From: Chthoniobacter flavus
Lineage (GTDB): Bacteria > Verrucomicrobiota > Verrucomicrobiia > Chthoniobacterales > JACTMZ01
Length of the DNA: 32,073 nt
Reading direction: 5' to 3'
Assembly: GCA_945878135.1 (NCBI GenBank)
Contig: CAMDUL010000028.1
Location: 1-32,073 of the forward strand
A model generated the notes under the pieces. The model was not told the DNA's origin. It worked only from the letters and a program-made list of their open reading frames with translations, and searched no databases. The position numbers were made by a program, and so were the translations under genes. Of the stretch, positions 6,317-27,336 are shown piece by piece. Each line of letters opens with the position of its first letter. Positions within the stretch are counted from its first letter, which is position 1.

Positions 6317-6328
6317 AGAGCTATCCGC

Positions 6329-14387: not shown

Positions 14388-14422
14388 AGTGTTCAGTGCC
14401 CGGTATCCAGTGTTCAGGGTCG
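14388..14422. repeat. 7-bp-period repeat (AGTGTTC class)
   Basis: Five heptamers in phase: AGTGTTC (14388), AGTGCCC (14395), GGTATCC (14402), AGTGTTC (14409), AGGGTCG (14416). The reverse complement contains the word CTGAACACT seen at other spacers in this window. Confidence 0.7.
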
Positions 14423-14466
14423 GAGCGGTTTGAGTTTTTCCGCAGCTTACTGCAGGGCCCCGGTGG

Positions 14467-15993
14467 TCATTTTCCCAGCTCCCGCAAAAAAGTCCGCGCC
14501 GAATCCGCGATGGCCTTCCGTTCCGCGGGAGTCTTTTTGGCCAGCGTTTTCAGCGCCATCCCGACCCGCGGATTGCGCGCGAAGCGCTTTTCGTGCCGCG
14601 CGTAGAAATCCCAATACAAATAATTGAAAGGACACGCCTCCGCCCCCGTCTTGATCTCGGGCTTGAAGCGGCAACCGGCGCAATAGTTGCTCATCCGCGA
14701 AATGTAACCCGATCCCGCGGCATACGGCTTGGTCGCCATGAACCCGCCGTCGGCATGCAGCACCATGCCGAGCACATTGGCCGCCATGACCCAGTCGTGC
14801 GCGTCGACATACATCTCGAGATACCAGCGCAGCGCCTCCGCCGGACGCACCCCGGCGAGAAGCAGGAAATTGCCCAGCACCATGAGCCGCTGGATGTGGT
14901 GATTGTAGCCGGTGGCCAGCACCTGGCGCAGGCACAGACGCAGGCAATTCATCTCCGTGTCGCCCGAATAAAAAAACGCCGGCAACGGGCGCTGCGCGTC
15001 GAGCCCGTTGACTTGCGCATACTCCGGCATCTTGAGCCAATAGACGCCGTTGACGAATTCCCGCCACCCCGCGATCTGACGCACGAATCCCTCCACGCTG
15101 GCCAGCGGCGCCAGGCGCTTTTCGTAGGCGGCGACAGCCCGCCCGATGCACTCGCGCGGGGTGAGCAGGCCGAGATTGATCAGAGGCGATATGACCGAGT
15201 GAAAAAGCAGCTCCTCGCCCTCCACCATGAGGTCTTCCCAAGGACCGAACCCGGCCAGCCGCGTGGCGATGAAATCGTCCAACCAGCGCAGCGCCCCCTC
15301 GCGATCGACCGGCAGCCAAAAATCATCCGCCGATCCGGGATTCGACGCGAATTCCTTTTCCACGAGTGCCATCACCTCCCGCGTGATCCGGTCCGGCTTG
15401 ACCCGCACCACCTCCGCCTGCGGACGGCCCGCCTTCGTCCAATCGCGGAACGTCTTCCGGTTCTCCTCGTCGAAATTCCACCGTCCGTCCACCGGCTTGC
15501 CGTCAGGCTCCATCAAAAATCCGAATTCCGTCCGCACCCGCCGGTAGTGCGTTTCCATGAGCAGCGACTTCTTGCCCTCGGCCCAAGCGACGAACTCCTC
15601 CCGCGGCACGAGAAACTGCCGCGTCGGCACAATCTCGACCGGAAATCTCTTGGCCAGCTTTTCCACCGCCGCCTGTTCGTCATAATTGTTGGGCTGCGCC
15701 AGCAGAATCCGCCCCGGCTTGTGCTTCTTCACGTGCGCCGCCAGGGCCGACTCCCAGGCCACCCCGCTCCCGAGCGCATGATAATCCACCGTCCACCCGG
15801 CCCGCCGCATCTCCCCGGCGAAGTGCCGTTGCGCCGAAAACAAAAGGACCAAGCGCTGTTTGTGGTATTTCAGCTTGCGCGACCCGCGCTCGCTCTCGAC
15901 GAAAAGAAGGACATCGTCCTTTTTTCGCGCGCCCGCCAACGCCGCATTATCCGGCCCGAGTTGGTCGCCGAGGATCCAGACGGTTCGCTTCAT
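14467..15993 (-). CDS. FeS-BCP photolyase-like protein (PhrB/DPRP family)
   Basis: 508-residue member of the iron-sulfur bacterial cryptochrome/photolyase family (deoxyribodipyrimidine photolyase-related protein), the group with Agrobacterium PhrB, a (6-4) photolyase of nearly the same length. Four cysteines that bind the 4Fe-4S cluster are at C350, C438, C441 and C454, the same numbers reported for PhrB. The Rossmann-like N-terminus starts WILGDQLGP; a histidine pair H365-H366 (GYNHHIQ) lies in the FAD domain, with AHDWVMAANVLGM following. Function: light-driven repair of UV (6-4) photoproducts, or light sensing. AGGGAG precedes the ATG. The gene ends at its own terminator and follows vapC by 46 bp on the same strand. 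Confidence 0.92.
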   Translation of the reverse strand: MKRTVWILGDQLGPDNAALAGARKKDDVLLFVESERGSRKLKYHKQRLVLLFSAQRHFAGEMRRAGWTVDYHALGSGVAWESALAAHVKKHKPGRILLAQPNNYDEQAAVEKLAKRFPVEIVPTRQFLVPREEFVAWAEGKKSLLMETHYRRVRTEFGFLMEPDGKPVDGRWNFDEENRKTFRDWTKAGRPQAEVVRVKPDRITREVMALVEKEFASNPGSADDFWLPVDREGALRWLDDFIATRLAGFGPWEDLMVEGEELLFHSVISPLINLGLLTPRECIGRAVAAYEKRLAPLASVEGFVRQIAGWREFVNGVYWLKMPEYAQVNGLDAQRPLPAFFYSGDTEMNCLRLCLRQVLATGYNHHIQRLMVLGNFLLLAGVRPAEALRWYLEMYVDAHDWVMAANVLGMVLHADGGFMATKPYAAGSGYISRMSNYCAGCRFKPEIKTGAEACPFNYLYWDFYARHEKRFARNPRVGMALKTLAKKTPAERKAIADSARTFLRELGK

Positions 15994-16039
15994 GGCTCCC
16001 TTTTAGCAGAAATTCCGAAAAAGCCCGTTCCATTGCACC

Positions 16040-16498
16040 TCATCGCTTTTGCTCCCGCTTGAGCGGATCCACCACGCGGAGACCGGCCTTACGCCCCAGC
16101 GCCGCCTGACGGCCGTCGCTTGTGACCAATTCCTCCGCTCCCAATTGCAAAGCACAGGCCACATGGAGCGCATCCAACGTGCGGCAGCCGGTCGCCGCGG
16201 CACGCGCATCGGACAAGATACGGCACCGCACCCATGCGTCATCCCACGCCACCGCGGCAACGCGCAGCACACCGGAGGCAAGATCCGACTCGATGTCCCG
16301 CAAGGCACCTGCAGCTTCCTCCTCGTGGCATTCGCCGCGGAAACATTTCAACCGCAGCGCCGGGACGCATTCCGTGTGGTGCATCACGGTGAAGACCAGC
16401 GCTTCGGCGCGCTGCACCACGAAGCTCCGGACGGGCGCCGAATCCTTCTCGTTGGTGCAGAGCTTCAGGAGAAGCCCCATGTCATAGTAGCACGTCAC
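16040..16498 (-). CDS. vapC: VapC-type PIN-domain toxin
   Basis: 152-residue PIN-domain ribonuclease. The acidic metal-site residues are D6 in YYDMGLLLKL, E44 in HHTECVPALRL, the aspartate of TLDALHVACA (about 108), and the aspartate of VTSDGRQ (about 127). YYDMGLL is a variant of the usual YLDTSAL. Length is normal. Its ATG overlaps the stop of the upstream Phd/VapB-type gene by 4 bp (ATGA), the typical antitoxin-first toxin-antitoxin arrangement. The target RNA is unknown. The downstream photolyase gene starts 46 bp later in the direction of transcription and could be co-transcribed. Confidence 0.87.
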   Translation of the reverse strand: MTCYYDMGLLLKLCTNEKDSAPVRSFVVQRAEALVFTVMHHTECVPALRLKCFRGECHEEEAAGALRDIESDLASGVLRVAAVAWDDAWVRCRILSDARAAATGCRTLDALHVACALQLGAEELVTSDGRQAALGRKAGLRVVDPLKREQKR

Positions 16499-16737
16499 CG
16501 GTCGCCGCGGCTTTCGTCAATCAGGGCCTGCGCCCCCGCACCGCGCCGGGGACCGCGCCAAGCGCGCTGCGCCCGCGCCGCGAAGTCGGGAAACACCACC
16601 GGGGCCGCTGCCGGAATGGGCGAAAGCACGGCCACCGGCCGGCCCCGGCGGATGATGGCCAATTGGCGCCCCGCCTCCACCTCGCGCAACAGCACCGCCA
16701 GATTGTGCTGCGCCTCCATCACGGAAAATGTTTTCAC
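16495..16737 (-). CDS. vapB: Phd/VapB-type antitoxin
   Basis: 80-residue protein with the Phd/YefM pattern: MKTFSVMEAQHNLAVLLREVEAG, then LAIIRRGRPVAVLSPI, which forms the N-terminal DNA-binding and dimer part (1-43). The basic, disordered C-terminus (RAQRAWRGPRRGAGAQALI) is where toxin binding is expected. It overlaps the PIN toxin by 4 bp. Like relatives it should repress its own promoter and neutralise the toxin. Confidence 0.87.
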   Translation of the reverse strand: MKTFSVMEAQHNLAVLLREVEAGRQLAIIRRGRPVAVLSPIPAAAPVVFPDFAARAQRAWRGPRRGAGAQALIDESRGDR

Positions 16738-16827
16738 AACGCATGAAAATCACCGATATCGTCGAGCCGTCAATCAGGCTCTCCGGACAGCTGGCCAGCG
16801 AGCCACCCGGTTGTCGATCAACGGGCC

Positions 16828-17181
16828 TCAGCGCCCGGTGCCGGTCAGGTAGGCATAAGGCGGACGGAACAACACCCGCCGCGGGACCACTTCGCCCCCG
16901 CGCCACTCTTTGGTTTCCACCGCGCGGTTGTTCGGCGTGGACACCGTGATGCGGTGCCGGGTCGAAGGCGACCCGCGCCAGCGTCCGTCCGGGGTGGACG
17001 GAACATCGATCTTCACCGGCGTGCCCCCGAGGTATTCGCCGTTCATTTCCACCACGCAGCGCGGCGGGATGCTCACCACCTCGAGAACGGTGGTGGACTC
17101 GGGATAAACCATCTGCCCGCCCCCGCAGCCGGCCAGACCGGCCGCCGCCAAGGCGAAACACAGCACACGCAGCTTCAACAT
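16828..17181 (-). CDS. PEGA-like lipoprotein
   Basis: 117-residue lipoprotein. The signal peptide MLKLRVLCFALAAAGLAGC ends in a lipobox (LAGC, lipidated C19), followed by GGGQ. Residues about 36-60 (VVSIPPRCVVEMNGEYLGG and TPVKID) match the PEGA surface-layer-type repeat, in which the consensus has I-P-P/x-A-x-V-x-V-(D/N)-G-x-Y-x-G-x-TP. The C-terminal part (WRGGEVVPRRVLFRPPYAYL) is unassigned. The start was chosen at the ATG that opens the signal peptide; an upstream in-frame ATG adds 16 residues that do not fit one. It is divergent from the alkaline-phosphatase-like gene across a 150-bp spacer. Role: probably an envelope-anchored binding or structural protein. Confidence 0.75.
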   Translation of the reverse strand: MLKLRVLCFALAAAGLAGCGGGQMVYPESTTVLEVVSIPPRCVVEMNGEYLGGTPVKIDVPSTPDGRWRGSPSTRHRITVSTPNNRAVETKEWRGGEVVPRRVLFRPPYAYLTGTGR

Positions 17182-17288
17182 GGCAGGCAATCTGCCCCGA
17201 AGAACGTCCGCGGGCAAGACCGGGCGCACCGGTTTTCCTCAGCCGTACGCACACAACCGGCCGCGCACCTGCGTCCTCTTCCCGCTTT

Positions 17289-17323
17289 ACTGAATCACGG
17301 AAAACTGGACACTGCCAACTCTG
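17289..17323. repeat. 7-bp-period repeat (ACTGAAT class)
   Basis: Five heptamers in phase immediately before the alkaline-phosphatase-like start: ACTGAAT (17289), CACGGAA (17296), AACTGGA (17303), CACTGCC (17310), AACTCTG (17317). It shares the word GGAAAACTG with the copy at 25981. Confidence 0.65.
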
Positions 17324-17331
17324 CCCATCCC

Positions 17332-18564
17332 ATGCCCTCCCGCATCCGCAACAAGATCATTTTCCTGACCTGCCTCTTCGCTTTCGCCGGCCTCGGCGTC
17401 GTCCTCTACCGCGAATGGGTTGTGCAAAAGCCCTTCGCCATCATTCTCATCGTGGCGGAAAACTTCGCGCCTTCGCACCTCGCCTCGGCCCGTCTTTTCG
17501 CCGGGGGCTCCGATTTCCGTTTCCGCATGGAGTCCATGCCGCGGGCTGCCTTGGCCAAAGCGCGGGCCGCCGACTACGCGGTGGCCGACAGCGCCGCGGC
17601 GGCCAGCGCCTTGGCCGCCGGGCAGCTGGTCAACCGCGGCGCGCTCGCCCTTTCCCCCGAGGGCCAGACCCTCGAGACGCTCCTGACCGCCGCGCGCCGG
17701 GCCGGACGCGCCACCGGGCTCGTTTCCGACACTCCCCTGACCGAACCGGCCACCGCCGCGTTCTTCGCCCGCGCCACCGACACCCGCGACGCCGGCGCGC
17801 TCGCCTTGCAACTCGCGGAGGACGGCGGACCCGATGTCATGCTCGGCGGAGGCGGCGCCCTGCTCACTCCGGACACGCAGGGCGGCATGCGCCGCGACGG
17901 ACGCGATCTGCTGCTCGAAATGCGGCAACGCGGCTTCGACATCGTGCGCAACAAGGCCGAACTGGAAAACACCCCCGGCTGGCGCGCGCCGAAATTGTTC
18001 GGTGTCTTCGCCGAGGGCGACCTCGCCTTCGCCGAGGACCAATCGCGCTATCCGACGCAGCCACGCCTCGCCGACCTGGTGCGCCGGGCCATCGAGTTGC
18101 TCCAATTCAACCGCAAGGGCTACTTCCTTGTTGTCCACGCCGGCCTCGCCGGACGCGCCGCCGAACTCGGCCGCGGGGAAACCCTCCTGCGCGAATATAC
18201 CGGCATCGACACCGCCGTGGCCACCGCCCTCGATTACGCCGGCGAGAACGCGCTCATTGTCGTCACCGGACTGTCCAATATCGGCGGACTGCGCCTCAAC
18301 GCCTTCTCCTTCGCGCCCGACCGCGGCATCGCCGTCCTCGGCCCCAGTGCCGGCGGCGTCCCCGCCCTCACTTGGTCCACCGGCCCCGGCCGCCCCGAGG
18401 CCGAACCCGGCACCGCCACCCTGGAAGCCGTCGCCGCCCGGACCGACAAGCCACAACCCGTGGCCGAAGACGTTCTGGTTCTCGCTTCGGGCCCGGGCAG
18501 CGAGAAAATTCCCGGCTTCCCCGACCTCACCGACCTGCACGCGGCACTGCAGCCGGGTCTGTGA
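17332..18564 (+). CDS. membrane-anchored alkaline-phosphatase-fold protein, probable pseudoenzyme
   Basis: 410-residue protein with a short basic N-terminus and one transmembrane anchor (about 8-26). The rest follows the alkaline phosphatase (PhoA-type) fold in motif order, but ligands are lost. The first strand IILIVAENFAP (37-47) replaces VILLIGDGMG; the serine motif ADSAAAASALAAGQ (85-98) keeps D86 and nucleophile S87; GLVSDTPLTEPATAAF corresponds to GLVTTtxxTHATPAAF without the His; VHAGLAGRAAEL (268-279) replaces EGGRIDHAGH; and VTGLSNIGG replaces TADHETGG. Metal-binding Asp/His residues at four sites are therefore missing, so catalysis is unlikely. It may bind phosphate or serve a structural role. 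It is the first of four plus-strand genes leading to a pseudopilin. Confidence 0.75.
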   Translation: MPSRIRNKIIFLTCLFAFAGLGVVLYREWVVQKPFAIILIVAENFAPSHLASARLFAGGSDFRFRMESMPRAALAKARAADYAVADSAAAASALAAGQLVNRGALALSPEGQTLETLLTAARRAGRATGLVSDTPLTEPATAAFFARATDTRDAGALALQLAEDGGPDVMLGGGGALLTPDTQGGMRRDGRDLLLEMRQRGFDIVRNKAELENTPGWRAPKLFGVFAEGDLAFAEDQSRYPTQPRLADLVRRAIELLQFNRKGYFLVVHAGLAGRAAELGRGETLLREYTGIDTAVATALDYAGENALIVVTGLSNIGGLRLNAFSFAPDRGIAVLGPSAGGVPALTWSTGPGRPEAEPGTATLEAVAARTDKPQPVAEDVLVLASGPGSEKIPGFPDLTDLHAALQPGL

Positions 18565-18648
18565 ACCGGCAGGCCTTGGACCGGCGCGTCTTTTGCCTTG
18601 CCCAAGCCAGGAAAAGACCCGAAGATTAATCCATAAATCCCGAACACC

Positions 18649-19488
18649 ATGAATAAATTCCTCCTCGTTCCCCTCCTCACGGTCCTCTCATCCGCCCCCC
18701 TTCTCGCCGGAGCCGGAACGGGCCCTTGGGCCTTGGGCGCCTACTACCCCGGCCAGCTTGACGGCAAGTATCAGGCCTCGGTTTCCGGCAACAACATCAC
18801 CGGCGTGGTCGGCTTCGCCATCGTCAATGGCGGACTCCCGTTCGCCTCGCGGAGCAGCGCCGCGGGCGGCGGGGCAACCACCGGCGGCGGGGCCGCCACC
18901 GGCACCTCGGCCAGCTCGGTCAACACCGACCTGGCGGGTGTGGACGAGACCCAAAACTACTTCGCCATCTTTGTCGAAGGCCGCACCTATACCGGCCGCA
19001 CCGTGGGCATGATCGACATAGATCGCAAAAAAGTCACCGGAACGTTGATCGGCCTGCAACCTCCGTTCAGCTACCAAGAACTGACCATTGGCCAAGCGCT
19101 CGTGGTAGGCACCCCGCCCGACCAAGAGGTCGTTACTTCCGAAACCACCGTGCCAATCGCCGACAATCTTCCGCTTCTGAACAGGGGTCTCTCGGGCGGC
19201 TTTACCGCCAACCTCAAGAACACCAAGAATTTGATGACCTTCAAAGGCACCGGGGAATTGGCCACTCCGGCCCAAAAGCAAACGATCATCGCGGACCCTT
19301 CCACGTTCCCCGTACCCGCATTGGATCCTGCGAGACCCGACATCATCATCAGTGGCTTCACTCCGCGCGCCACCTCGGCGACCATTGAAACTGACACCGT
19401 GTGCTTCAACGTCTACGGCATCAAGACTTCGATCTTGGCCACGGATCCCTTGGCTTCATCGGGCGCTGCTGCGACCGGCGCAAACTGA
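18649..19488 (+). CDS. secreted protein of unknown function
   Basis: 279-residue exported protein. The signal peptide is MNKFLLVPLLTVLSSAPLLAG (cleavage near 20). A Ser/Ala/Gly/Thr-rich low-complexity stretch at about 69-90 separates two beta-rich parts: VVGFAIVNGGLPF before and YFAIFVEGRTYTGRTVGMIDID after. The C-terminal half contains LSGGFTANLKNTKNLMTFKGTG (about 177-198). No family is recognised. It lies 84 bp after the pseudo-phosphatase gene and 13-76 bp before the pseudopilin (depending on its start), so it is a candidate cargo or partner of that system. Function unknown. Confidence 0.75.
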   Translation: MNKFLLVPLLTVLSSAPLLAGAGTGPWALGAYYPGQLDGKYQASVSGNNITGVVGFAIVNGGLPFASRSSAAGGGATTGGGAATGTSASSVNTDLAGVDETQNYFAIFVEGRTYTGRTVGMIDIDRKKVTGTLIGLQPPFSYQELTIGQALVVGTPPDQEVVTSETTVPIADNLPLLNRGLSGGFTANLKNTKNLMTFKGTGELATPAQKQTIIADPSTFPVPALDPARPDIIISGFTPRATSATIETDTVCFNVYGIKTSILATDPLASSGAAATGAN

Positions 19489-19564
19489 TCTCCCACGAGA
19501 TATGACTTGGGCTGAGGCCAAGCCCCCCAAGCTCCCGGTTCCATCGCCTGCTTCGCGGCGCGCC

Positions 19565-20080
19565 ATGCGTCCCCGGCGGCAACCGGGTGCGTTCACCATC
19601 CTCGAACTGGTGGCCGCCATGCTTATCCTCGGCATCCTTGCGGCGCTGATCATACCGAATGCTTCCCGCTTGGTCGCCGCCGCCCAGCAGGCCAAGTGCG
19701 CTTCCAACATGCGCTCCATCCGCTTGGCCCTCGCGGGCTATCTGGACGATCACAAGCAGGTGTGGCCGCAGGGTCCGGAACCCGGCACGCCGCCGTGGGA
19801 AACTTTCTGGGTCGCCACCCTCGGCCCCTACGGCATCGGCGCCAATGGTTGGGAATGCCCGACCCTCCGGGCGCAAATGAAGGAGCAGGGCGAAACCGGC
19901 TACGGTCTGCATTACGTTCCAACCATGTTCGACGCCACGCCGAACATCGCCAACCGCTGGTCGACCCAGCCGTGGCTGATCGAGGCAGCCGATGCCCACG
20001 GCCATGGCGCGCTGATCTGCTTCCCGGACGGCTCGGTCAAACCTTTCAGCAAGGTCCTGGCCGAGCAGGGACTGCTATGA
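19565..20080 (+). CDS. prepilin-type pseudopilin with H-X9-DG motif
   Basis: 171 residues from Met at 19565 (an alternative ATG at 19502 adds 21 residues). The leader MRPRRQPGA is followed by FTILELVAAMLILGILAAL, a type IV prepilin/type II pseudopilin N-terminal helix with Glu at +5 when cleavage is after Ala; the -1 residue is then Ala, not the usual Gly. The C-terminus has HGHGALICFPDG, an exact H-X9-DG match, a motif found in pseudopilin-like proteins of Planctomycetes, Verrucomicrobia and Lentisphaerae. The preceding segment with WECPTLRAQ and YGLHYVPTMF matches the same family. The stop overlaps the next gene by 4 bp. It is probably a minor pseudopilin of an unknown assembly or secretion device. 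Confidence 0.88.
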   Translation: MRPRRQPGAFTILELVAAMLILGILAALIIPNASRLVAAAQQAKCASNMRSIRLALAGYLDDHKQVWPQGPEPGTPPWETFWVATLGPYGIGANGWECPTLRAQMKEQGETGYGLHYVPTMFDATPNIANRWSTQPWLIEAADAHGHGALICFPDGSVKPFSKVLAEQGLL

Positions 20081-20988
20081 CACCCACGGCCCTGCGCCTG
20101 GCCGGCGCAGCCGCCATCCTGCTCGCCGCCAATACGATGCCAGCCGCGGCCAACGATGCCCCGGCGATCGATGCGGCGGCCGCGCTGGCCGATCTGGCCG
20201 CCTTGCAGGAGAAACACGAACGCTCGGCCGAAGCACGCCGCCGCGAAGCGATCGCCCTCCTCCGGGCCGCGGTGCAAAGCGGCGCGTCGGCGACCCGGCT
20301 TTACGAAGACGCGGTCGAGAACCAGGGACAGCCGGACATGGCCGAATGGAAGAAAAAGAACGCCGACCTGCTGCGGGCCAAACCTTTCGAGTCAGCCCTC
20401 CAGTTGCGCCTGCGCTACCTCCTGCTCTCGCTGGAACGCGGACGCGCGCCGGAGGGCGCCGCACGCTGGGCCGCCCCTTCGCTGCAATACGCCGCGGACC
20501 TCGCGCGGCTGTTGACCGACAAAAGCTTCAACGCGGGACCGAAGGAAGCGCGGGAAATGCTGCAGGCCCCCTTGGGCGAAGGACCGTTTGTGCGTTGGTT
20601 GCGGCTCGGCCCCCTCCTCCCGCCCGGCGACCTTTGGGAGCACAGTCCGGGAGAACTCGGCGGCATCCTCGAGAAGAACGTGCGCACGGCGTGGCGCAAG
20701 GAAGGCAACCCGCGACTCGACGAATCGTGGCAGCTCGAGTTGAACGCCGGCGCCGCCTTGGCCGAGTCACGGGTCGGGCGGGGCGGACGTGCGATCGACG
20801 ACTTCAACAACTTCACCGCCCCGTCGCTCCTCTTCCGCCGCGCCCGCGACCGCGCCGCCGCCGGCCAGCCCAACTGCGCCACCGCGGACCTCCTCGATCT
20901 GGCCCGCCGCTACCCCGCGCACCCCGAATTCCCGGCCTGGGCCGCGGCCCTGCGCGAAATGCTGGGGGATAAAACGGACACCCCCTGA
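20077..20988 (+). CDS. exported protein of unknown function
   Basis: 303-residue protein with a signal peptide (MTPTALRLAGAAAILLAANTMPAAA, residues 1-25). The mature part is mainly helical: an Ala/Glu/Arg-rich stretch (about 30-75), then ATRLYEDAVENQGQ and AEWKKKNADLLRAKPFESALQLRLRYLLL (in parts) where tetratricopeptide-like helices could form, and later DDFNNFTAPSLLFRRARDRAAAG. No catalytic motif or known family was recognised. It overlaps the H-X9-DG pseudopilin stop by 4 bp (ATGA), so it is translationally coupled and probably acts with it. Gene reality is well supported by coding character and the coupling. Confidence 0.8.
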   Translation: MTPTALRLAGAAAILLAANTMPAAANDAPAIDAAAALADLAALQEKHERSAEARRREAIALLRAAVQSGASATRLYEDAVENQGQPDMAEWKKKNADLLRAKPFESALQLRLRYLLLSLERGRAPEGAARWAAPSLQYAADLARLLTDKSFNAGPKEAREMLQAPLGEGPFVRWLRLGPLLPPGDLWEHSPGELGGILEKNVRTAWRKEGNPRLDESWQLELNAGAALAESRVGRGGRAIDDFNNFTAPSLLFRRARDRAAAGQPNCATADLLDLARRYPAHPEFPAWAAALREMLGDKTDTP

Positions 20989-21034
20989 GCGGCCGCGAAG
21001 GCGGACCTGCCCAGGCCGTGATTATGACACCACT

Positions 21035-21724
21035 TCAACCGCCGCGCCGCCGCAGAATCTCCGCCGCGTAAGGATCCCCTTCCTCCGCCAGCTCGCGCAG
21101 GAATCTCCGCCCGAGCTCGGCCACCTCCGGGTCGGCGTGCGTCAGCGCCACCTCGGCCACCCGGGGCGTGAGGAAGCGCCCGAGCATCCGCACCGCCTCC
21201 CCCGCGGTCGCCCGCGGCAGACGCGCGAGATAGTCCGCTTCGATCTTCCCCTCCAAAAAAATGATATCTGCCCGGTCTTTGTCCCGCCCGGTCTCCTGCT
21301 TGCTGACCAACAGATCGATCGGATCCGGCAACCGCGTGCCGTCGTCCATCGGCCGGGCCCGTTCCCAAATCTCATCGAAATCCTCCATGGGGAGCTGGTT
21401 GGGAGCACGGAAAATATCCAGCGGGCGTTCCAACCCGCCGAGTCGGATCACTCCATCGCGCCCGATGACCTCCGCCAGCTGATCCCGCGGGATTTTCTCC
21501 CACGATCCGATCGCCACCGGCTGCCCGGAGCCGATGTCATAAAGCGCGGGAGCAAGCCGGCTGGACCATTCCTCCGGAGACCCGAACGGATCGACCCAAA
21601 CGTCCGCATCGTAAGTGTTGCGACTCAGACCGGTGGCAATAACCGCCACGCCGCCGAGGGTGAGCACGCGGAACTCTCCCGCCACGCGGCGGATCACTTC
21701 GTCGGATCCGGTCTTGGCCCCCAT
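21035..21724 (-). CDS. nucleotidyltransferase-fold protein (AbiEii/DUF6036-like)
   Basis: 229-residue protein. Residues 21-46 (LTLGGVAVIATGLSRNTYDA and DVWVD) show the nucleotidyltransferase-fold signature: G24-G25, then R35-N-T-x-D39-x-D41, which in AbiEii-like and DUF6036-like proteins binds NTP and metal. The C-terminal half is helical (RLPRATAGEAVRMLGRFLTPRVAEVAL in parts). It overlaps an 81-residue gene upstream by 31 bp on the same strand, in the arrangement of a toxin-antitoxin pair. Biochemical activity is inferred; it may be a toxin or an RNA-modifying enzyme. Met21724 was chosen as the start because it opens the first helix; a longer start would overlap the partner more. Confidence 0.72.
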   Translation of the reverse strand: MGAKTGSDEVIRRVAGEFRVLTLGGVAVIATGLSRNTYDADVWVDPFGSPEEWSSRLAPALYDIGSGQPVAIGSWEKIPRDQLAEVIGRDGVIRLGGLERPLDIFRAPNQLPMEDFDEIWERARPMDDGTRLPDPIDLLVSKQETGRDKDRADIIFLEGKIEADYLARLPRATAGEAVRMLGRFLTPRVAEVALTHADPEVAELGRRFLRELAEEGDPYAAEILRRRGG

Positions 21725-21939
21725 CGCTCCATGTCTTCCTTGATCCGGTCGGAAATCCAGAGCGCATCGGCCACGGACCGCACCCCGCCGGGCAACCACG
21801 GCTCGGAGTTGTCGGGGATGCGGGGCCGGGAGGGATCGGGGCCCTCCGGCTTGCCCTGCCAGCGGCGCAGCACCTTGCGGGATTTTTCCATGGAGTAGAG
21901 CCATTTCTGACGCTCCACGTCCGGCCGGTATTGCTTCAT
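21694..21939 (-). CDS. small partner of the nucleotidyltransferase (putative antitoxin)
   Basis: 81-residue protein. The N-terminal part MKQYRPDVERQKWLYSMEKS is basic and helical; the C-terminal ADALWISDRIKEDMERWGP is amphipathic; the middle is rich in Pro and Asp. No family was recognised. It is encoded upstream of the nucleotidyltransferase and overlaps it by 31 bp, as many antitoxins do, so a neutralising role is proposed. Upstream of the start is TTTGGCTT, with no good Shine-Dalgarno sequence. Coding status is fair, based on length, coupling and an absence of other genes in the spacer. Confidence 0.5.
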   Translation of the reverse strand: MKQYRPDVERQKWLYSMEKSRKVLRRWQGKPEGPDPSRPRIPDNSEPWLPGGVRSVADALWISDRIKEDMERWGPRPDPTK

Positions 21940-21993
21940 AAGCCAAAGTTAGCCCGCCGAACGGGACGAGACAAGATCCGGAGAATTCATTTG

Positions 21994-22020
21994 AACAGAA
22001 GCAAACAAAGGGAACGAAGG
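21994..22020. repeat. 9-bp-period repeat GAACAGAAG-type
   Basis: Three nonamers ending in AAG: GAACAGAAG (21994), CAAACAAAG (22003), GGAACGAAG (22012). Same 9-bp periodicity as at 14331-14357, but different words. Confidence 0.6.
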
Positions 22021-22054
22021 GCACCCCAGCCCGCCCGCTCTCCGCCCTCACTTT

Positions 22055-22075
22055 CACTTCGCACTTCGTCCTTCC
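22055..22075. repeat. 7-bp-period repeat CACTTCG
   Basis: CACTTCG at 22055 and 22062, then TCCTTCC at 22069. It lies in the same spacer as the 9-bp repeat and the pseudopilin promoter. Confidence 0.5.
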
Positions 22076-22091
22076 CAGCTTTTCCCTCCTC

Positions 22092-22119
22092 TTGCCTGCC
22101 AGCCAATGCTAGCTATACT
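22092..22119 (+). promoter_or_regulatory. candidate sigma-70 promoter of the GspG-like gene
   Basis: -35 TTGCCT (22092-22097), 16-bp spacer, -10 TATACT (22114-22119). Transcription would start near 22126, about 95 nt before the ATG, so the leader RNA would contain the CTGAACA heptamers at 22146-22166. Confidence 0.5.
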
Positions 22120-22145
22120 AATTCCCGTTCTCTTCTATGTCTAAG

Positions 22146-22210
22146 TCTGCCACTGAACACTGAGCCGAGGCTTGGCGAGACAGGCCTTAGCCAAAACTGA
22201 ACACTAAACC
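22146..22210. repeat. 7-bp-period repeats (CTGAACA class) in the GspG-like 5' leader
   Basis: TCTGCCA (22146), CTGAACA (22153), CTGAGCC (22160), and a second block with AACTGAA and CACTAAA around 22195-22208. They sit between the candidate promoter and the start codon. Confidence 0.6.
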
Positions 22211-22220
22211 CACCCACCCC

Positions 22221-22718
22221 ATGACCATGCCATCACTCGTCACTCGTCACCCGTCACTCGTCACTCGCCGCCGGTCGGCGGCGTTCACCCTCATCGAACT
22301 CCTCGTCGTCATCGCCATCATCGCAATCCTTGCCGGGCTCGGCTTCGCCGGGATGAAAGGGGCGATGGATGCCGGTAAAAAGGCCCAGGCCCGCAACGAT
22401 GTCAGCCAGATCGCCTCCGCGGTGAAGGCTTACCTTCTCGAATTCGGGCGCCTGCCCGAAAAAGGCACCCTGATGGCCACCCTGACCGGAAACAACCCGA
22501 AGAAAATCGTCTTTTTCGAAGCGAAGAATGCCGTGAAGGGCAAAGGCGGCCTGCAAGGCCAGAACATGATGGACCCTTGGGGTGAGGCCTACAAAATCAC
22601 CTTGGATGACGACTACGACAACAAGACCAAAGGCGAACTCTCCGGGGTGGAACATCTGACCACCGTTGTCGTCGAGACCATGGCTCCCGACAAAAAGGTC
22701 ATCAGCAACGTGCAGTAA
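22221..22718 (+). CDS. GspG-like prepilin-type pseudopilin
   Basis: 165-residue protein with the class III signal sequence FTLIELLVVIAIIAILAG (about 22-39), Glu at +5, and processing after Ala21 (AA|FTLIE), so the -1 residue is again Ala. The mature part resembles GspG: helix AQARNDVSQIASAVKAYLLEFG, then GRLPE and DPWGEAYKI (about 118-126), which is the pattern of the major type II secretion pseudopilin, here with a calcium-site-like DDDYD stretch. The leader MTMPSLVTRHPSLVTR is encoded by five copies of the heptamer TCACTCG. No other type II secretion genes are nearby. Start ATG 22221 or 22227. Confidence 0.88.
   Translation: MTMPSLVTRHPSLVTRRRSAAFTLIELLVVIAIIAILAGLGFAGMKGAMDAGKKAQARNDVSQIASAVKAYLLEFGRLPEKGTLMATLTGNNPKKIVFFEAKNAVKGKGGLQGQNMMDPWGEAYKITLDDDYDNKTKGELSGVEHLTTVVVETMAPDKKVISNVQ
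22233..22267 (+). repeat. five tandem TCACTCG heptamers inside the pseudopilin leader
   Basis: TCACTCG repeats at 22233, 22240, 22247 (with T to C: TCACCCG), 22254 and 22261. Because 7 is not a multiple of 3, one unit gained or lost shifts the frame of the pseudopilin. Confidence 0.85.
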
Positions 22719-22754
22719 GACCGAACCGGGAAAGAATCTGGGCTTTGTTTCTCG

Positions 22755-22822
22755 GGGTAGGGAGGAGCGGCCCGCTCGTCCGCCCTCTTTCCAAAGGACA
22801 CCCGAGCCGCGTGTCCCTACCC
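22755..22822. repeat. REP-like palindromic element (GTAGGGA arms)
   Basis: GGGTAGGGA (22755-22763) faces TCCCTACCC (about 22813-22821). Inside are two smaller hairpins: GGAGCGGCCCGCTCGTCC (about 22764-22781) and one around GGACAC/GTGTCC (22795-22815). It lies after the GspG-like gene and may also act as a transcription stop. Confidence 0.6.
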
Positions 22823-22855
22823 TGGGCCGAAAGATGCAGTTGAAGCCAAAAAGTT

Positions 22856-22909
22856 GAAGCGGCGTCCCCGCCGCTTAACCCGGACACCAAGCGGCGAGGA
22901 CGCCGCTTC
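22856..22909. repeat. REP-like palindrome (AAGCGGCG arms)
   Basis: Two 21-nt arms, 22856-22876 and 22889-22909, are inverted copies with one mismatch. Each arm is also a hairpin by itself (AAGCGGC with GCCGCTT). It is 62 bp past the endonuclease stop. Confidence 0.65.
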
Positions 22910-22971
22910 CACTTTTCCGAGGCACGCTCCTTCGCGGACTGATTTCTTCTGCGCGGTTACGACGCACCACC

Positions 22972-24687
22972 CTACTCCGCCAACTCCGCCCGCAACCGCA
23001 GGAACCGCGCGTCGCCCGTGGCCGGCACGCTGAAGACACGCCTTTCGCATCCCGCCGGCACGCCGTCTTGCGGCACACCCTCCGCGGCACCGGCCGCGGC
23101 GACACCTTGCACCGTCCACACGCCGGCAGCAAGGTTACCGCTGGATTCGGCCACCACGGTCAAAGCGGGATCATCCGCGCGCACCACGGCTTCCAGGACA
23201 AGGAAGCCGTTGTCGAGTCCGGTGCTCGGCATTTGCCCGTCACCGGACGAAGGACCGCTCGCCCCGCCGATGGCGTAAGCATGGAGCGTGTCCGGGGAAG
23301 GTTCCTCCCCTTGCAGCCATTCCACGAATCCATCGGCGGGTTGCGGATCAACCTGCACCTCGACAACAAGAGTCAGAGTTTCGTAGGCCGCGGTGTTCGT
23401 CGGCGTGAAAACCACCTGCTGCAAAGATGAGCCGACAGGCGGCACGATTTGTCCGGCGGCGAAGGCGAATGTCCCGGGCACGGAAGCCTGCCCGCCGGTC
23501 AGCGTGATTTCGGCCAGCGTCATGCCATCGGTGGCCGGACCGGCCACCGGCCAAGTGACGATCTGCGGGACACCTTTGGCCGGGGCGTCGAGGAGCGCCA
23601 ACTCGGCCGGACCGTCCACCGGCGCGTAAGCCGCGCTGGGACCCGCGGCGACCAACAAGGTTCGCAGGCCTTGCTCTCCGGATTGCGCGCGAGCCGCCAG
23701 GACGAGATCGAAAGTCGTGGCCCCGGCGGGGATCGTCACGGCAGACGGCGTTTCCTCCCACTCGCCCGGGTCCGCGGTGCCGTCATAAACGAGCGGGACG
23801 GTCAGGGGCTGGGTCACCGGGCCGCGCCGGCTGATGCGCACCACGGCGTCCTCGAGTCCTTCGGTGGCCACCGCCTGCACCGCCGTGACCCGCACGACCG
23901 GCACGCCGCGGAAAACCATCTCCACGTAATCGGGATCATCGACGAAAGGATTCCGGTTGTATTGGTAGTCGGTGTAAACGAGATGATTGCGGCGCCGCTC
24001 CTCGTCGTCCACCGGATCCTCACGGTGCCAGCGGAGCAGATCGGAGAGCCGCCCGAAGCGGTTCGCTCCGGCATTGGGCGTGTCGGACAACTCGAGATCG
24101 GGCGTCGACTCCCCGCCCTCGTAGCGCACCGCCATGTAGAACATGGCGCGGGCCAAATCGCCTTTTTCCTCGGGACGTGGCATCCATGCGGCCGAAGTTT
24201 TCCGGCACAAGGGCGAGAAAGTCGGAGTGCTGCCGCCCGTGATCTCGGCGTAATAGAGGCTGCCCCTCTCGTTGTTGGCCTGCACGTCCGTCGGACGGAG
24301 GTTGTGGACGTCCGATTTGCCCGGGCCCGAATCGACCCCGTAGGCCTGAGGCCAGCAGTGCTCATGGTTCCAGTCGCCGACCGAGCCGCCGTAGCGTGAC
24401 CCGGCGCGCCCCGTGCCCCAGTAGAGCAGGCGCACCTGCGACGAATTGCCCGGCATGGCATCGAGCACCCGCAGGGCGGCCGCGGTGCCGGAGGAACCGT
24501 AGGACAATACCCGGTGGCCCTTGATCCTCTGGTGCAAGGCGGACTTTAGTCCCGCGCCGACCAACCCCTGCGCACTCTGGTAATAGTCAGCCGGCGGATC
24601 GTAAACCGTGGATCGCCCGACCCGCGCCTCGGCGGAAGAGAAAGCCCAGAGCAATAGAAAACCGAAGAGAATTCGAAAGGAGAACAC
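22972..24687 (-). CDS. secreted endonuclease I with C-terminal Ig/Calx-like domains
   Basis: 571 residues from the GTG at 24687, chosen because it begins a signal peptide (MFSFRILFGFLLLWAFSSAEA); ATG at 24810 would add 41 residues before it and lies inside a repeat. Endonuclease I (EndA-type) motifs: WNHEHCWPQ (106-114), DVHNLRPTD (126-134) and N138 with R141 in ANNERG. These form the beta-beta-alpha-metal nuclease site, cutting DNA outside the cell. Then come a Calx-beta-like region (about 300-385), an Ig-like region (about 400-480), and a last domain ending FSVPATGDARFLRLRAEL. The tail matches that of the 1289-residue protein downstream. Likely a nutrient- or biofilm-related extracellular nuclease. 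Confidence 0.88.
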   Translation of the reverse strand: MFSFRILFGFLLLWAFSSAEARVGRSTVYDPPADYYQSAQGLVGAGLKSALHQRIKGHRVLSYGSSGTAAALRVLDAMPGNSSQVRLLYWGTGRAGSRYGGSVGDWNHEHCWPQAYGVDSGPGKSDVHNLRPTDVQANNERGSLYYAEITGGSTPTFSPLCRKTSAAWMPRPEEKGDLARAMFYMAVRYEGGESTPDLELSDTPNAGANRFGRLSDLLRWHREDPVDDEERRRNHLVYTDYQYNRNPFVDDPDYVEMVFRGVPVVRVTAVQAVATEGLEDAVVRISRRGPVTQPLTVPLVYDGTADPGEWEETPSAVTIPAGATTFDLVLAARAQSGEQGLRTLLVAAGPSAAYAPVDGPAELALLDAPAKGVPQIVTWPVAGPATDGMTLAEITLTGGQASVPGTFAFAAGQIVPPVGSSLQQVVFTPTNTAAYETLTLVVEVQVDPQPADGFVEWLQGEEPSPDTLHAYAIGGASGPSSGDGQMPSTGLDNGFLVLEAVVRADDPALTVVAESSGNLAAGVWTVQGVAAAGAAEGVPQDGVPAGCERRVFSVPATGDARFLRLRAELAE

Positions 24688-24797
24688 GGGGAGCGTTGGG
24701 GAGGTCTGACCAAAAGGTAAAGTTAACCCATTTCCCCGAGGTGGCAAGGGGCCCTCCCCCGCCCAAGACAAAAGTCCTGCCTTGATTTCTTTTCGTT

Positions 24798-24845
24798 CTC
24801 CATTCTGCATTCTGCACTCATCATTTTTCCTTCCTCCCCTCCGCG
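24798..24845. repeat. 48-bp direct repeat B, copy 1
   Basis: Identical over 48 bp to 27228-27275. It begins with CTC and two CATTCTG heptamers, then CACTCAT and a T/C-rich tail ending CCGCG. The reverse strand carries a GGAGGAAGGAAAAATGATG-like ribosome-binding stretch ahead of Met codons. Confidence 0.9.
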
Positions 24846-24934
24846 CTCCCCGCTATTGCCAGTTTTCCACCTTCATCCTTTTCCCGTGCCGGCCCTTGCC
24901 ATCTAGCCGCGGAAACGGCATCTTTCGAAGTTTC

Positions 24935-25120
24935 ATGAGCACCTTGATGGAAATCGAAGAGGCCGCCGCACAGCTCCCTTCGCCCGACTTCGTGCAACTC
25001 CTCGAAGATCTCCACGATCTCGCCACCGCACGGGTAGCCTTGGGCGAGCTGAAAGAAGATCCGGCCGGCGCGGTCGCGTGGGACCAGCTCAAGTGCGAAC
25101 TCGATGCCCTACACGGTTGA
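24935..25120 (+). CDS. RelB/ParD-like antitoxin (addiction module)
   Basis: 61-residue acidic protein. The core DLHDLATARVALGELKEDPAG and AVAWDQLKCEL resembles the RelB-type antitoxin consensus D-L-A-xx-R-xx-(x)-E and W-xx-(L/V)-K-x-E-L. It starts at the ATG giving MSTLMEIEEAA; a weak GAAG precedes it. It overlaps the toxin gene by 17 bp (25104-25120). It should bind and neutralise the RelE-fold toxin and autorepress the operon. Confidence 0.8.
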   Translation: MSTLMEIEEAAAQLPSPDFVQLLEDLHDLATARVALGELKEDPAGAVAWDQLKCELDALHG

Positions 25121-25370
25121 GATCCTGCGCCGCGCAGAAAAAACGCTGCGGGCCCTGACTGATCGCAAATTCTACCTCCGCCTCCGCAATACCATCGATG
25201 CGCTGGCCGTTGAGCCACGGCCGCATGGCTGCTCCAAGCTCAGCGGTGGCAAGGATATCTACCGCGTCCGCGTCGGGGACCACCGCATTATTTACCAAGT
25301 CATCGACGATCGCCTGTTGATCTTGGTTGTCGATATCGGCCATCGCCGCGAAGTTTACCGCACTGTTTAG
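25104..25370 (+). CDS. RelE/ParE-family toxin
   Basis: 88-residue protein of the RelE/ParE fold. MPYTVEILRRAEKTLRALTDR is the first strand-helix, then LRNTIDALAVEPRPHGCSKLSGG, then the strands DIYRVRVGDHRIIYQVIDD and LLILVVDIGHRREVYR. The YRVRVGDHRIIYQV block with R-hydrophobic-G-D-x-R is characteristic. RelE members cut mRNA at the ribosome while ParE members target gyrase; the sequence does not decide. It is the distal gene of a two-gene module enclosed by direct repeat B. Confidence 0.9.
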   Translation: MPYTVEILRRAEKTLRALTDRKFYLRLRNTIDALAVEPRPHGCSKLSGGKDIYRVRVGDHRIIYQVIDDRLLILVVDIGHRREVYRTV

Positions 25371-25479
25371 ACAGAGCCAGTTTTGCGAACCGACGCTTGG
25401 CGAACCGTAGCGAAGCGAAGATGGGTCGCTTGAAGCGACCAACTGATACCGGAGGCGCAACCGGAGATGGCCCTCTGTC

Positions 25480-25507
25480 AACTTCAGGTCTCAGGTTTCA
25501 GCATTCC
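25480..25507. repeat. 7-bp-period repeat (AACTTCA class)
   Basis: AACTTCA (25480), GGTCTCA (25487), GGTTTCA (25494), GCATTCC (25501), in phase. Confidence 0.6.
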
Positions 25508-25546
25508 TCCCTCTTACCATCCCCTCTCCCCTTCCGCGGCAAAGGA

Positions 25547-25650
25547 TGAGACCTGAGTTTGAAAGCTGAATCAGCCGCAGGCCGAACAAACATTAGCCAC
25601 CGATGGAAGAAGATGGTTTCCCGCGGTGTGACCCCCGCGGGAAACAATTC
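25547..25650. repeat. direct repeat A, copy 1 (about 104 bp)
   Basis: Matches 27033-27145 with a few substitutions and one 10-bp length difference. It begins with TGAGACC/TGAGTTT heptamers and ends with an 11-bp perfect hairpin, GTTTCCCGCGG/CCGCGGGAAAC, around an 8-nt loop. Confidence 0.88.
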
Positions 25651-25776
25651 ACGTTCAGACTTGCCCAAGGGCGGTCTCTTCTGCGCTGAACTGCACCCGC
25701 CCGCATGCCTCCCTCGGTCCAGTTCTTTCCGAACTCGCCACACGTTTGCCTCCCGACTAACTCGAGGTGTTTTTAG

Positions 25777-25846
25777 GCAGCGACGGTCATAGACCGCCGC
25801 TACAATTTTTCGTCGAGGTGTAGCGGCGCTCTATGAGCGTCGGTGC
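25777..25846. repeat. REP-like pair of inverted hairpins
   Basis: Arms 25777-25804 and 25819-25846 are inverted copies with 3 mismatches in 28. Each arm folds alone: CGGTC/GACCG in the left and CGCTC/GAGCG in the right. The differences between arms keep pairing inside each arm. Confidence 0.75.
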
Positions 25847-25985
25847 TTTTCCCCCTTGCCCGGATGATAACCCCGGTTACTCCCGGCACACACCCGCGCG
25901 CGGGTTCGGGGACTCAGGGCCATCTCCGCAGACTCCGGTTCAAGCCACACGTCACCGGGCGCCCCGCGCCTCGCCTCCGGCGGAA

Positions 25986-26006
25986 AACTGAACACTGAAC
26001 ACTGCG
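25986..26006. repeat. 7-bp-period repeat (AACTGAA/CACTGAA class)
   Basis: AACTGAA (25986), CACTGAA (25993), CACTGCG (26000), preceded by CGGAA as in the 17296 copy. It lies just beyond the AbiEii-like stop. Confidence 0.75.
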
Positions 26007-26025
26007 GCCTCCGGCCGCCTTGCCT

Positions 26026-26679
26026 TTAACTCAGGCTCTCCGCTCGAAGCGAAACTTGCGGCAGGTCGCCAACCCCGGCAACGGCAGCACACAGCGTTTC
26101 CCGCACATCGGCCGGCAACGAAGACAAATCCCCACCTTCGAAGTAGGTCAGGGCCTTGAGCACAACCATCGGCGGCAGATCGGGCGCGAAAAGCGTTTCG
26201 GCGGCGGCGAGTCCGTGCTCCAACCGCAGGCCGGCCCGAAGAATTGCCGCAACGTCGAGATAGTCCTTCGCCTCGACCCTCTGCACGACGAGCTTCAGCT
26301 TGAACGCGAGCAAATCCTCCAACGAGGCCGCGACGACCACGCCATCTTCGGACGCCTCGGGCTCACCCACGCGCCCGACATTCAAGCCGCCGAAAAAAGA
26401 AACTTTGACCCCGCCGGGCGAAAGCACGGTCAGGGACTCCGGCTCATCCTGCAGCACCGCGGCGGAAGCCAACCATGGCAAGGAGTGTGTCAGCGCCGTG
26501 CGTTCGAGGGGACGATGCGTGAAGAAATCGAAATCGACCGATTGGCGGTGGCCCAGACGCAGCGCGATGGCCGTGCCGCCATAAAGGACGAAACCCAGAT
26601 CCCGCACCGGCGCCAATCCCCCCCAAAGCGCCATCTGAGACGCGGGAAGGATCGAGAAGCTTGGGTGAAACCTCTTCAC
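26026..26679 (-). CDS. AbiEii-type nucleotidyltransferase toxin
   Basis: 217-residue protein of the AbiEii/AbiGii toxin family. Residues 30-52 (FVLYGGTAIALRLGHRQSVD and FDFF) hold the nucleotidyltransferase signature GG(34-35) and S-x-D49-F-D51. K127/K129 and KDYLDVAAIL (138-147) form the conserved second block. AbiEii toxins act as (GTP-dependent) nucleotidyltransferases, some modifying tRNA. The start is GTG at 26679, which overlaps the TGA of the upstream 102-residue gene by 4 bp (GTGA). That upstream partner is the same as in many AbiEii loci. It is enclosed by repeat A copies. Confidence 0.88.
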   Translation of the reverse strand: MKRFHPSFSILPASQMALWGGLAPVRDLGFVLYGGTAIALRLGHRQSVDFDFFTHRPLERTALTHSLPWLASAAVLQDEPESLTVLSPGGVKVSFFGGLNVGRVGEPEASEDGVVVAASLEDLLAFKLKLVVQRVEAKDYLDVAAILRAGLRLEHGLAAAETLFAPDLPPMVVLKALTYFEGGDLSSLPADVRETLCAAVAGVGDLPQVSLRAESLS

Positions 26680-26984
26680 GCGAAGCGGCGAACCGGCATG
26701 GCGGGCACGGCACCGGCCGCCGCCAGCCCGAGACGGCAGTGCCAAAAATGCCAAGACCGCGGGGAAAACCACCCCGGTTCGGCCTGGCGGATCACCTCGG
26801 CCAAAGCGTCCGGCCCGGCGGCCTTCTCCAGCGCGCGCACATCGGCGAAGGTGCCGAGGTCCATGACTTGCGCCATGACGCGCCGCGGACGCCGCGCCGC
26901 CTGCTCCGGCGTCTGCCACCAAATATATTTGGCCGCCCAATCGTGGATCGCCGGCGTCATCCGGTAAACATAGCGCATTTCCAC
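26676..26984 (-). CDS. small AbiEii partner protein (putative antitoxin)
   Basis: 102-residue protein with the family pattern RRVMAQVMDLGTFADVRALE, then LAEVIRQAEPGWFSPRSWHF and WHCRLGLA, ending PAMPVRRF. Proteins of this type are regularly found directly upstream of AbiEii-like nucleotidyltransferases, which suggests antitoxin function; it is not the larger winged-helix AbiEi. It overlaps the toxin start by 4 bp. Met2 of MEMRYVYRMT or Met9 could be the start. Confidence 0.83.
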   Translation of the reverse strand: MEMRYVYRMTPAIHDWAAKYIWWQTPEQAARRPRRVMAQVMDLGTFADVRALEKAAGPDALAEVIRQAEPGWFSPRSWHFWHCRLGLAAAGAVPAMPVRRFA

Positions 26985-27032
26985 TGCCCGTCCAACTCGC
27001 TTCGACGATAGCCAAGCTACCCTCCGGCCAGT

Positions 27033-27145
27033 TGAGACTTGAGTGTGAAAGCTGAATCAGCCGCAGGCCGAACAAGCATTAGCCACCGATGGAAGAAGAT
27101 GCCCGAAGATGGTTTCCCGCGGTGCTACCCCGCGGGAAACAATTC
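27033..27145. repeat. direct repeat A, copy 2 (about 113 bp)
   Basis: Same orientation as 25547-25650. It has one more GCCCGAAGAT unit after GAAGAAGAT, and its terminal hairpin GTTTCCCGCGG/CCGCGGGAAAC has a 7-nt loop. Confidence 0.88.
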
Positions 27146-27227
27146 CGTGCTCAAGGCCGGACTCCGCCGGGACTCAATCCGCACCCATGCGCATCAATCG
27201 GCGCTCCGCTCATCGCAACCTTGCGTC

Positions 27228-27275
27228 CTCCATTCTGCATTCTGCACTCATCATTTTTCCTTCCTCCCCTCCGCG
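27228..27275. repeat. 48-bp direct repeat B, copy 2
   Basis: Identical to 24798-24845, same orientation, 2,430 bp away. Confidence 0.9.
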
Positions 27276-27301
27276 TAAATCGGTGGCCCCGTTTCCCTCC
27301 G

Positions 27302-27336
27302 ACTGAACACTCTCAACCGAATCACTGAGCACCTGA
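27302..27336. repeat. 7-bp-period repeat (ACTGAAC class)
   Basis: ACTGAAC (27302), ACTCTCA (27309), ACCGAAT (27316), CACTGAG (27323), CACCTGA (27330), in phase. Confidence 0.65.

Follow-up and report, generated by a model that had tools for sequence, protein, structure and literature searches.

The window examined here, the whole 32,073-nt stretch formed by contig C28 (CAMDUL010000028.1) of a Chthoniobacter flavus genome of 2.64 Mb and 64% GC, carries dispersed arrays of tandem 7-bp units (heptads). These arrays belong to the known heptanucleotide repeats of Cyanobacteria, Beggiatoaceae and Xanthomonas, and the comparison with cyanobacterial repeats drawn in a first-pass annotation of the window was apt: as in heptanucleotide long simple sequence repeats and short tandemly repeated repetitive sequences, 7-bp tandem units occur beyond chance, lie mainly between genes and vary in number by steps of 7 bp. 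The replacement of one repeated word by another at several sites of another phylum, protein-coding ones included, is an addition to what is known of such repeats. The arrays, with the one gene that contains the strongest of them, are as follows (P-values at lag 7 and with free lag 5–12).

14388..14420, minus strand: degenerate heptad array with the words AGTGTTC / CAGTGTT, next to a GC-rich hairpin (P = 0.014; 0.10)
17289..17314, plus strand: decayed heptad array ACTGAATCACGGAAAACTGGACACTG, non-significant by itself
22055..22074, plus strand: short heptad array CACTTCG CACTTCG TCCTTC (P = 0.037; 0.21)
22151..22163, plus strand: CACTGAACACTGA, just under two heptad units (P = 0.044; 0.30)
22221..22718, plus strand: pseudopilin-like gene with a coding array (PF07963 and PF08334 above cut-off, TIGR01710 below)
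22233..22267, plus strand: (TCACTCG)5, the strongest array, followed by a GC-rich hairpin (Tandem Repeats Finder score 63; P = 0.0005)
24796..24819, plus strand: heptad array TTCTCC ATTCTGC ATTCTGC ACTC (P = 0.002; 0.016)
25484..25506, plus strand: heptad array TCAGGTC TCAGGTT TCAGCATTC (P = 0.0065; 0.039)
25983..26004, minus strand: heptad array of two CAGTGTT and one CAGTTTT, beside hairpin GCGGCCTCCGGCCGC (P = 0.001)
27228..27262, plus strand: heptad array CATTCTGCATTCTGCACTCATCATTTTTC, a near-copy of that at 24796 (P = 0.0025; 0.022)
27302..27335, plus strand: isolated related words CTGAACACT and CACTGAGC, no significant array (P = 0.65)

To assess periodicity, 13 stretches (the 12 coordinates quoted in the first-pass annotation plus 22199–22220) were each set against 2,000 of their own first-order Markov shuffles, using one score for lag 7 alone and another for a free choice of lag 5–12; P-values are per single test, with 13 tests in all. 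Five stretches were periodic even with free lag, namely 22233 (P = 0.0005), 25986 (P = 0.001), 24801 (P = 0.016), 27231 (P = 0.022) and 25480 (P = 0.039), and three were periodic at lag 7 alone (14388, P = 0.014; 22055, P = 0.037; 22146, P = 0.044). The remaining five (17289, 22199–22220, 25547, 27033 and 27302) did not go beyond their shuffles. The annotated runs of heptamers are thus confirmed in part, and the period is not “strict” as had been claimed, since those five stretches are aperiodic alone and a step of 8 bp interrupts some related runs; the quoted words, such as CTGAACA, are present. Furthermore, the loci are not all independent, because 24801 and 27231 have ~46 bp in common, array included, and 25547 and 27033 fall within a second, longer repeated segment that runs from AAAGCTGAATCAGCCGCAGGCCGAACAA to GCGGGAAACAATTC in two window spacers (25554–25650 and 27047–27147). 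Comparison with sister species identifies degenerate arrays at both 14388 and 17289: the former site holds TTTTCCG/TGTTCAG/TTTTCAG-type runs in four sister genomes, and the places matching the latter hold GAACACTGAAAACTGATCACT-type runs in G006, G002 and G010. An identical or near-identical run stands at the 25484 array in G010, G002 and G004, and CATTTTGCGTTTTTCATTC at the 27228 place in G010 and G002.

The preference for lag 7 extends beyond the quoted loci. Within the window spacers (18 pieces, 5,157 bases), four lag-7 segments passed a lower threshold against 0.2 in shuffled sequence, and two passed a higher threshold against 0.0, with every other lag below three. The first-pass annotation had proposed comparing intergenic DNA with shuffled controls at lags 5–12, and such a comparison over 19 stretches of 20 kb not selected for arrays (171 intergenic pieces totalling 35,896 bases) bore out an excess at lag 7: five segments against 0.1 at the higher threshold (lag 14, three; lag 21, four; remaining lags, at most one) and nine against 1.2 at the lower, where lags 5 (7 vs 1.9) and 6 (5 vs 1.3) were mildly in excess. 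Across 20 stretches of the same genome plus the window, of which stretch L010 had been picked for a match, the higher threshold yielded 12 noncoding and 6 coding lag-7 segments, although noncoding sequence makes up 52,871 of the 432,073 bases; the lag-7 arrays of this genome are thus mainly intergenic. Genes are codon-model calls throughout, and some open reading frames in GC-rich genomes may be spurious.

A census of 246,917 intergenic bases in seven genomes, with one shuffle per spacer and after dropping 72 segments (all lags together) that held the words used to select stretches, separates the seeding of repeats from their growth. Among short segments of little over two copies, lag 7 was no commoner than lag 9 or 12 (26 vs 9 shuffled at lag 7, 34 vs 13 at lag 9, 31 vs 9 at lag 12 and 21 vs 9 at lag 6), and the short-segment excess at lags 9, 12 and 15 may in part be missed coding sequence. 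In the middle class, lag 7 reached 35 vs 2 and lag 9 17 vs 1. In the long class, with zero in shuffles, lag 7 stood at 46, lag 8 at 16, lags 6 and 16 at 9 each and all others at 7 or fewer. Because short duplications arise at many lags but long arrays are mostly of lag 7, the 7-bp preference is seen at the growth stage; the own genome alone contributed only three, two and one lag-7 segments in the short, middle and long classes. A growth-stage preference fits the published polymerase-footprint idea as it is reported in PMC4679880 and PMC4692102.

Comparison of unit number among relatives, likewise proposed at the outset, showed turnover in steps of 7 bp. The array at 25983 is exactly 14 bp (two units) longer in G010 and has the same units in G002, and an orthologous array of G010 differs by 7 bp from those of G002 and G006. 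At the 14388 site, G002 and G006 (97–98% flank identity) have arrays of equal length in which the middle TTTTCCG has been replaced by a copy of the neighbouring TGTTCAG. Length differences between orthologs were multiples of 7 in 13 of 25 directional rows, which are non-independent, against 3.6 expected; the remaining rows contain further spacer indels, and clean pairs differ by 0, 7 or 14 bp. Gains and losses of units and copying of neighbours are what slippage or unit copying gives.

Whole words are also exchanged at single sites. In genus g94, orthologous array pairs of G143 and G157 differed in at least some units in six of six cases, three of them wholly; in one of these three, each of the four units has changed from ACTCGTC to ACTTGTC with no change in array length. 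In a protein gene of g99, a genus distant from that of the window, a first place holds four copies of ACTCGTC in G160 (32 bp), of ATTCAGC in G271 (31 bp) and of CTCGTCC in G272 (30 bp), with 85–90% right-flank identity among these three holders, and no array in G273, G265 and G266; the array peptide was not found at this place in the more distant G270 and G188. At a second place of this gene, G160 and G266 carry an array, whereas G273, G271 and G272 lack one. A second g99 gene carries CACTCGT in G160 and G269, an inverted ATTCAGC-type pair (34 and 33 bp) in G271, an 8-bp run (judged by eye) in G273, and no heptad array in G272, G266, G265, G270 and G188. At the start of hemW in the window genus (TIGR00539 above cut-off), GTCAC(C/T)C-type words stand in G000 and G004, GAAAACT/GAACACT words in G005, G001, G002, G006, G010, G008, G003 and partly G007, and neither family in G009; the GAAAACT/GAACACT family was read by eye and includes one 8-nt step, the lag-7 detector having flagged G003 only. 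The 7-bp rhythm is thus kept while words differ at one site, which supports the annotated claim that the period is better conserved than the words, and period-keeping word replacement points to a copying process. Among open-access literature, judged by titles and the starts of abstracts, we found no account of word replacement for the present phylum.

That all but one locus lie between genes, as the first-pass annotation had it, roughly holds for the window, although 17289 lies at a gene start of uncertain exact position; arrays also occur within predicted genes of this and other genomes. (TCACTCG)5 falls among the codons predicted for the N-terminus of a GspG-like pseudopilin (SLVTRHPSLVTRR). 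This array was not found in the best homologs of nine genus members (G005 outside the set), of which only those in G004 and G007 have runs at all, weak ones made of different words. With this array and the one at hemW, arrays do occupy predicted genes of the own genome. Inside called genes, the pyrimidine-rich strand is the sense strand in 35 of 39 arrays; of 94 arrays next to 3′ ends, 65 have it as the antisense strand, and between co-directional genes it is sense in 41 and antisense in 58. At gathering score, Rfam recovered only a tRNA (1676–1749) in the whole window, and the arrays match no RNA family.

On balance, we think that the window arrays are dispersed heptanucleotide minisatellites grown by slippage-type unit turnover, the word being replaced by loss of an array and relaying of another. 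A short word piece from a small, lineage-specific vocabulary would arrive at a site, and the array would then expand and turn over in the whole 7-bp steps observed, replication or repair slippage being the probable cause. Growth would favour 7 bp, as in the census, though short duplications form at many sizes. A change of phase would break an array, and point changes would be spread or erased by unit copying, so that the period would outlive the word. Arrays would be mostly tolerated rather than used, at gene edges and in leader or loop codons mostly with the pyrimidine-rich strand, and where one is lost a new one may be laid at the same permissive site, giving the appearance of word exchange.

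Several observations weigh against this account. For every unit at one place to be replaced, the array must collapse and regrow or a different process must act. Each genome examined uses only a few words, whereas slippage from local seeds would yield diverse ones. Arrays of G143 and G157 belong to a larger dispersed unit with CACCGCA flanks and hairpins, and in two Acidobacteriota genomes a core tends to persist beside two free positions, as it would under core selection. Finally, in several genomes array length clusters at 30–32 bp, a pattern not expected from simple slippage; over all sets this class makes up 73 of 309 lag-7 segments (a count that, like those of length class and variable column below, includes stretches picked for holding GTCAC or TCA(C/G)T arrays), and lags 6, 9 and 10 tail off. 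Slippage as proposed in the first-pass annotation therefore accords with whole-unit changes between orthologs but does not easily explain whole-word replacement inside genes, and because slippage alone fits the latter poorly, the alternative offered there, a phased-repeat process, is kept.

In a rival account, which we regard as possible but doubtful, an activity would write short heptad arrays of much the same length, drawing on a small template vocabulary, and could overwrite an array already present, in register, with another word. It would account for a g99 coding site with three different words or none in six genomes of one genus, for a second g99 gene with CACTCGT, an inverted ATTCAGC-type pair or none, for two word families at the hemW start, and for G143/G157 pairs that all differ, three wholly; independent insertion into tolerant loops, or 21-bp collapse and regrowth, would appear identical. 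The 30–32 bp class is the commonest in G143 (17/61), G157 (21/49), G248 (9/23) and narrowly G249 (9/49), yet it has no peak in the own genome (7/45, the commonest class there being 18–20 bp) and, once the dominant words are removed, comes down to 14 of 107. A strict standard length is accordingly rejected, being clear in G143, G157 and G248, absent from the own genome and weak without dominant words. No enzyme was found, the single candidate examined being Y1 transposases (PF01797); as a putative partner, Y1/RAYT transposase was tentatively set aside, as it occurs in 137 of 194 genomes with no obvious relation to arrays by eye. Compared with REP/RAYT elements, dispersed palindromes that have a tag and a Y1 transposase partner, the present arrays have hairpins significantly close by in G143 and G157 alone. 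A wider version, in which many phyla would share a process that writes arrays of four to five units from a small set of lineage-specific words, both between and within genes, and replaces them in register by other words, seems to us improbable. If true, the pitch of 7 bp would be a property of a machine and not of the sequence, as would the ~31-bp length seen in some lineages.

Ectopic gene conversion, by which homologous recombination would copy arrays with their flanks between dispersed copies, we also consider unlikely, although it has support in genus g94. There, CACCGCA precedes 30 of 66 arrays of G143 and G157 against 0.3 expected, hairpins lie near arrays in 13 of 33 cases (G143) and 20 of 33 (G157) against ~10% expected, and flanks of 95% identity enclose a block of hairpin, CACCGCA and array that is not the same in both. 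In G160 and G248 we found no convincing motif common to the flanks, yet words are exchanged in the genus of G160; G249 has a weak TTCACC phrase at 5 of 39 flanks. Hairpins were rejected as a general companion of arrays, being significant in G143 and G157 only: they were non-significant in the own genus (5/30, P = 0.12) and G160 (6/21, P = 0.14), and counts elsewhere were 2/17 in G209, 1/14 in G248 and 3/39 in G249. As an observation apart, heptad arrays also occur as inverted pairs round a short spacer (L090:9782–9876 and L086:13955–14014) and are potential long imperfect hairpins.

Rather less probable is that each heptad is a putative subsite for a repressor stacking every 7 bp, by analogy with the omega ribbon-helix-helix repressor, which stacks on 7-bp subsites. 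In favour, G248 has 11 arrays out of 13 in which the two most variable unit columns are adjacent (permutation P = 0.002), and G249 has 21 out of 30, where the permutation P is 0.18; such adjacency does not hold in the own genome (6/20), the own genus (4/16) or the pooled set (11:10:8). A general 5+2 rule, with two neighbouring free positions, was consequently rejected (11:10:8 of 29 arrays; it fails in the window genus), and two free neighbouring positions are retained as a tendency for two Acidobacteriota genomes. The location of arrays inside codons, and in both orientations between co-directional genes, argues against one regulatory role. Chance periodicity in pyrimidine-rich spacers, in favour of which stand the five non-significant stretches, is refuted for the whole set by the genome sample, the sister genomes and the shuffles, and we give it almost no credence.

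Several known systems resemble these arrays in part. For the heptanucleotide long simple sequence repeats of Mrazek 2007, as described in PMC4679880 and PMC4692102, slippage through polymerase interaction was proposed; that proposal is shared here, with the differences that the preference appears at growth and not at seeding, that words are exchanged at one site and that arrays are also found within genes. TAACTGA repeats of Beggiatoaceae, Cyanobacteria and Bacteroidetes, in the account of PMC4679880, have one dominant word, with related heptamers rare in BOGUAY, and for the most part immediately precede start codons, in a single orientation, unlike the present arrays. The GGGAATC repeats of Xanthomonas and GGGGA(C/T)T repeats of Nostoc described in PMC4692102 are, like those here, heptads of usually four units that vary in length and sequence at conserved places; the G-quadruplex idea raised there does not fit TCACT- and CTGAA-type words, and the window words GTCACTC, GAACACT and CATTCTG have no G3/G4 tract per unit. 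Also similar, as presented in PMC4476775, are heptads of the Nostoc trnL intron P6b, where Class II motifs (NNTGAGT) were repeatedly replaced wholesale by Class I motifs (TDNGATT) at one site; that site is one RNA stem-loop, whereas here several sites of another phylum are involved, some of them protein-coding.

Rickettsia palindromic elements are likewise inserted in-frame into protein genes; they are longer palindromes, whereas the repeats here are heptad arrays. Why prokaryotic minisatellites prefer seven bases has been a standing question since 2007, and the combination of short duplications of many sizes with selective 7-bp growth makes the question testable. Sites with different words in sister species are natural experiments that set slippage against templated replacement, and heptad arrays also alter proteins, in leaders, in loops and at the hemW start.

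Upon searching 194 genomes of the phylum, a pattern of three GTCAC cores at any spacing matched in 102, with 128 matches in G160, 58 in G209, 36 in G157, 28 in G143 and 9 in the own genome. For each of the first four, 20 places were listed, and cores 2 nt apart, which give a 7-bp pitch, stood at 18 of them in G160, 18 in G209, 20 in G157 and 19 in G143. A reversed GTCAC control gave zero in G000, G143, G157 and G160, 48 in G209 and higher counts in a few genomes (e.g., G070, 137) that hold other repeats. Three TTCAGT cores matched in 16 of the 194 genomes; among the matches listed, spacing was 7 bp in G197, G217, G092, G231, G219, G094 and G241, 8 bp in G133, 9 bp in G060 and irregular in the remaining genomes, and of three own-genome places one was 7-7 and two had an 8-bp step. 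Six TCA(C/G)T cores at 7-bp pitch occur in at least 12 phyla among 80 loci listed, with phyla taken from record titles. Parallel array families of 8 bp (GGTTCGAA, TCACTTCT) and 9 bp (TTCAGTCGA) were seen in the L091:13238 region, G249 and G060.

Arrays were also considered as favoured synteny breakpoints or cassette borders, and this was rejected, since 3 of 23 block ends had an array no more than 60 bp away, where 12.3% would be expected (P = 0.55). Suggestive single cases are an array-flanked gene in G143 that is absent from G157 and, in G157, a gene of 1.2 kb located at an array, and the window flanks at 22055–22267 and at 24796 match different sister contigs. At L102:16361–16800 and L154 (reverse) 5173–6500, a single gene that only one of two closely related genomes has stands exactly at heptad arrays in each case, flanked by arrays or array remnants; we take their products to be a small four-helix-like protein and a nuclease-like protein. 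Within the window, genes of ParE-type toxin and AbiEii type lie between array-bearing spacers (24944–26984), and G010 has the two blocks in the opposite order. Other repeats lie nearby: 25744–25929 is a dispersed ~170-bp repeat with at least 10 further places in the own genome (~81–94% identity) and some in sister species, and 22730–22823 (~90 bp) and 22846–22923 (~75 bp) are short dispersed repeats with many copies in the genus, G005 holding most copies of the former among the matches listed.

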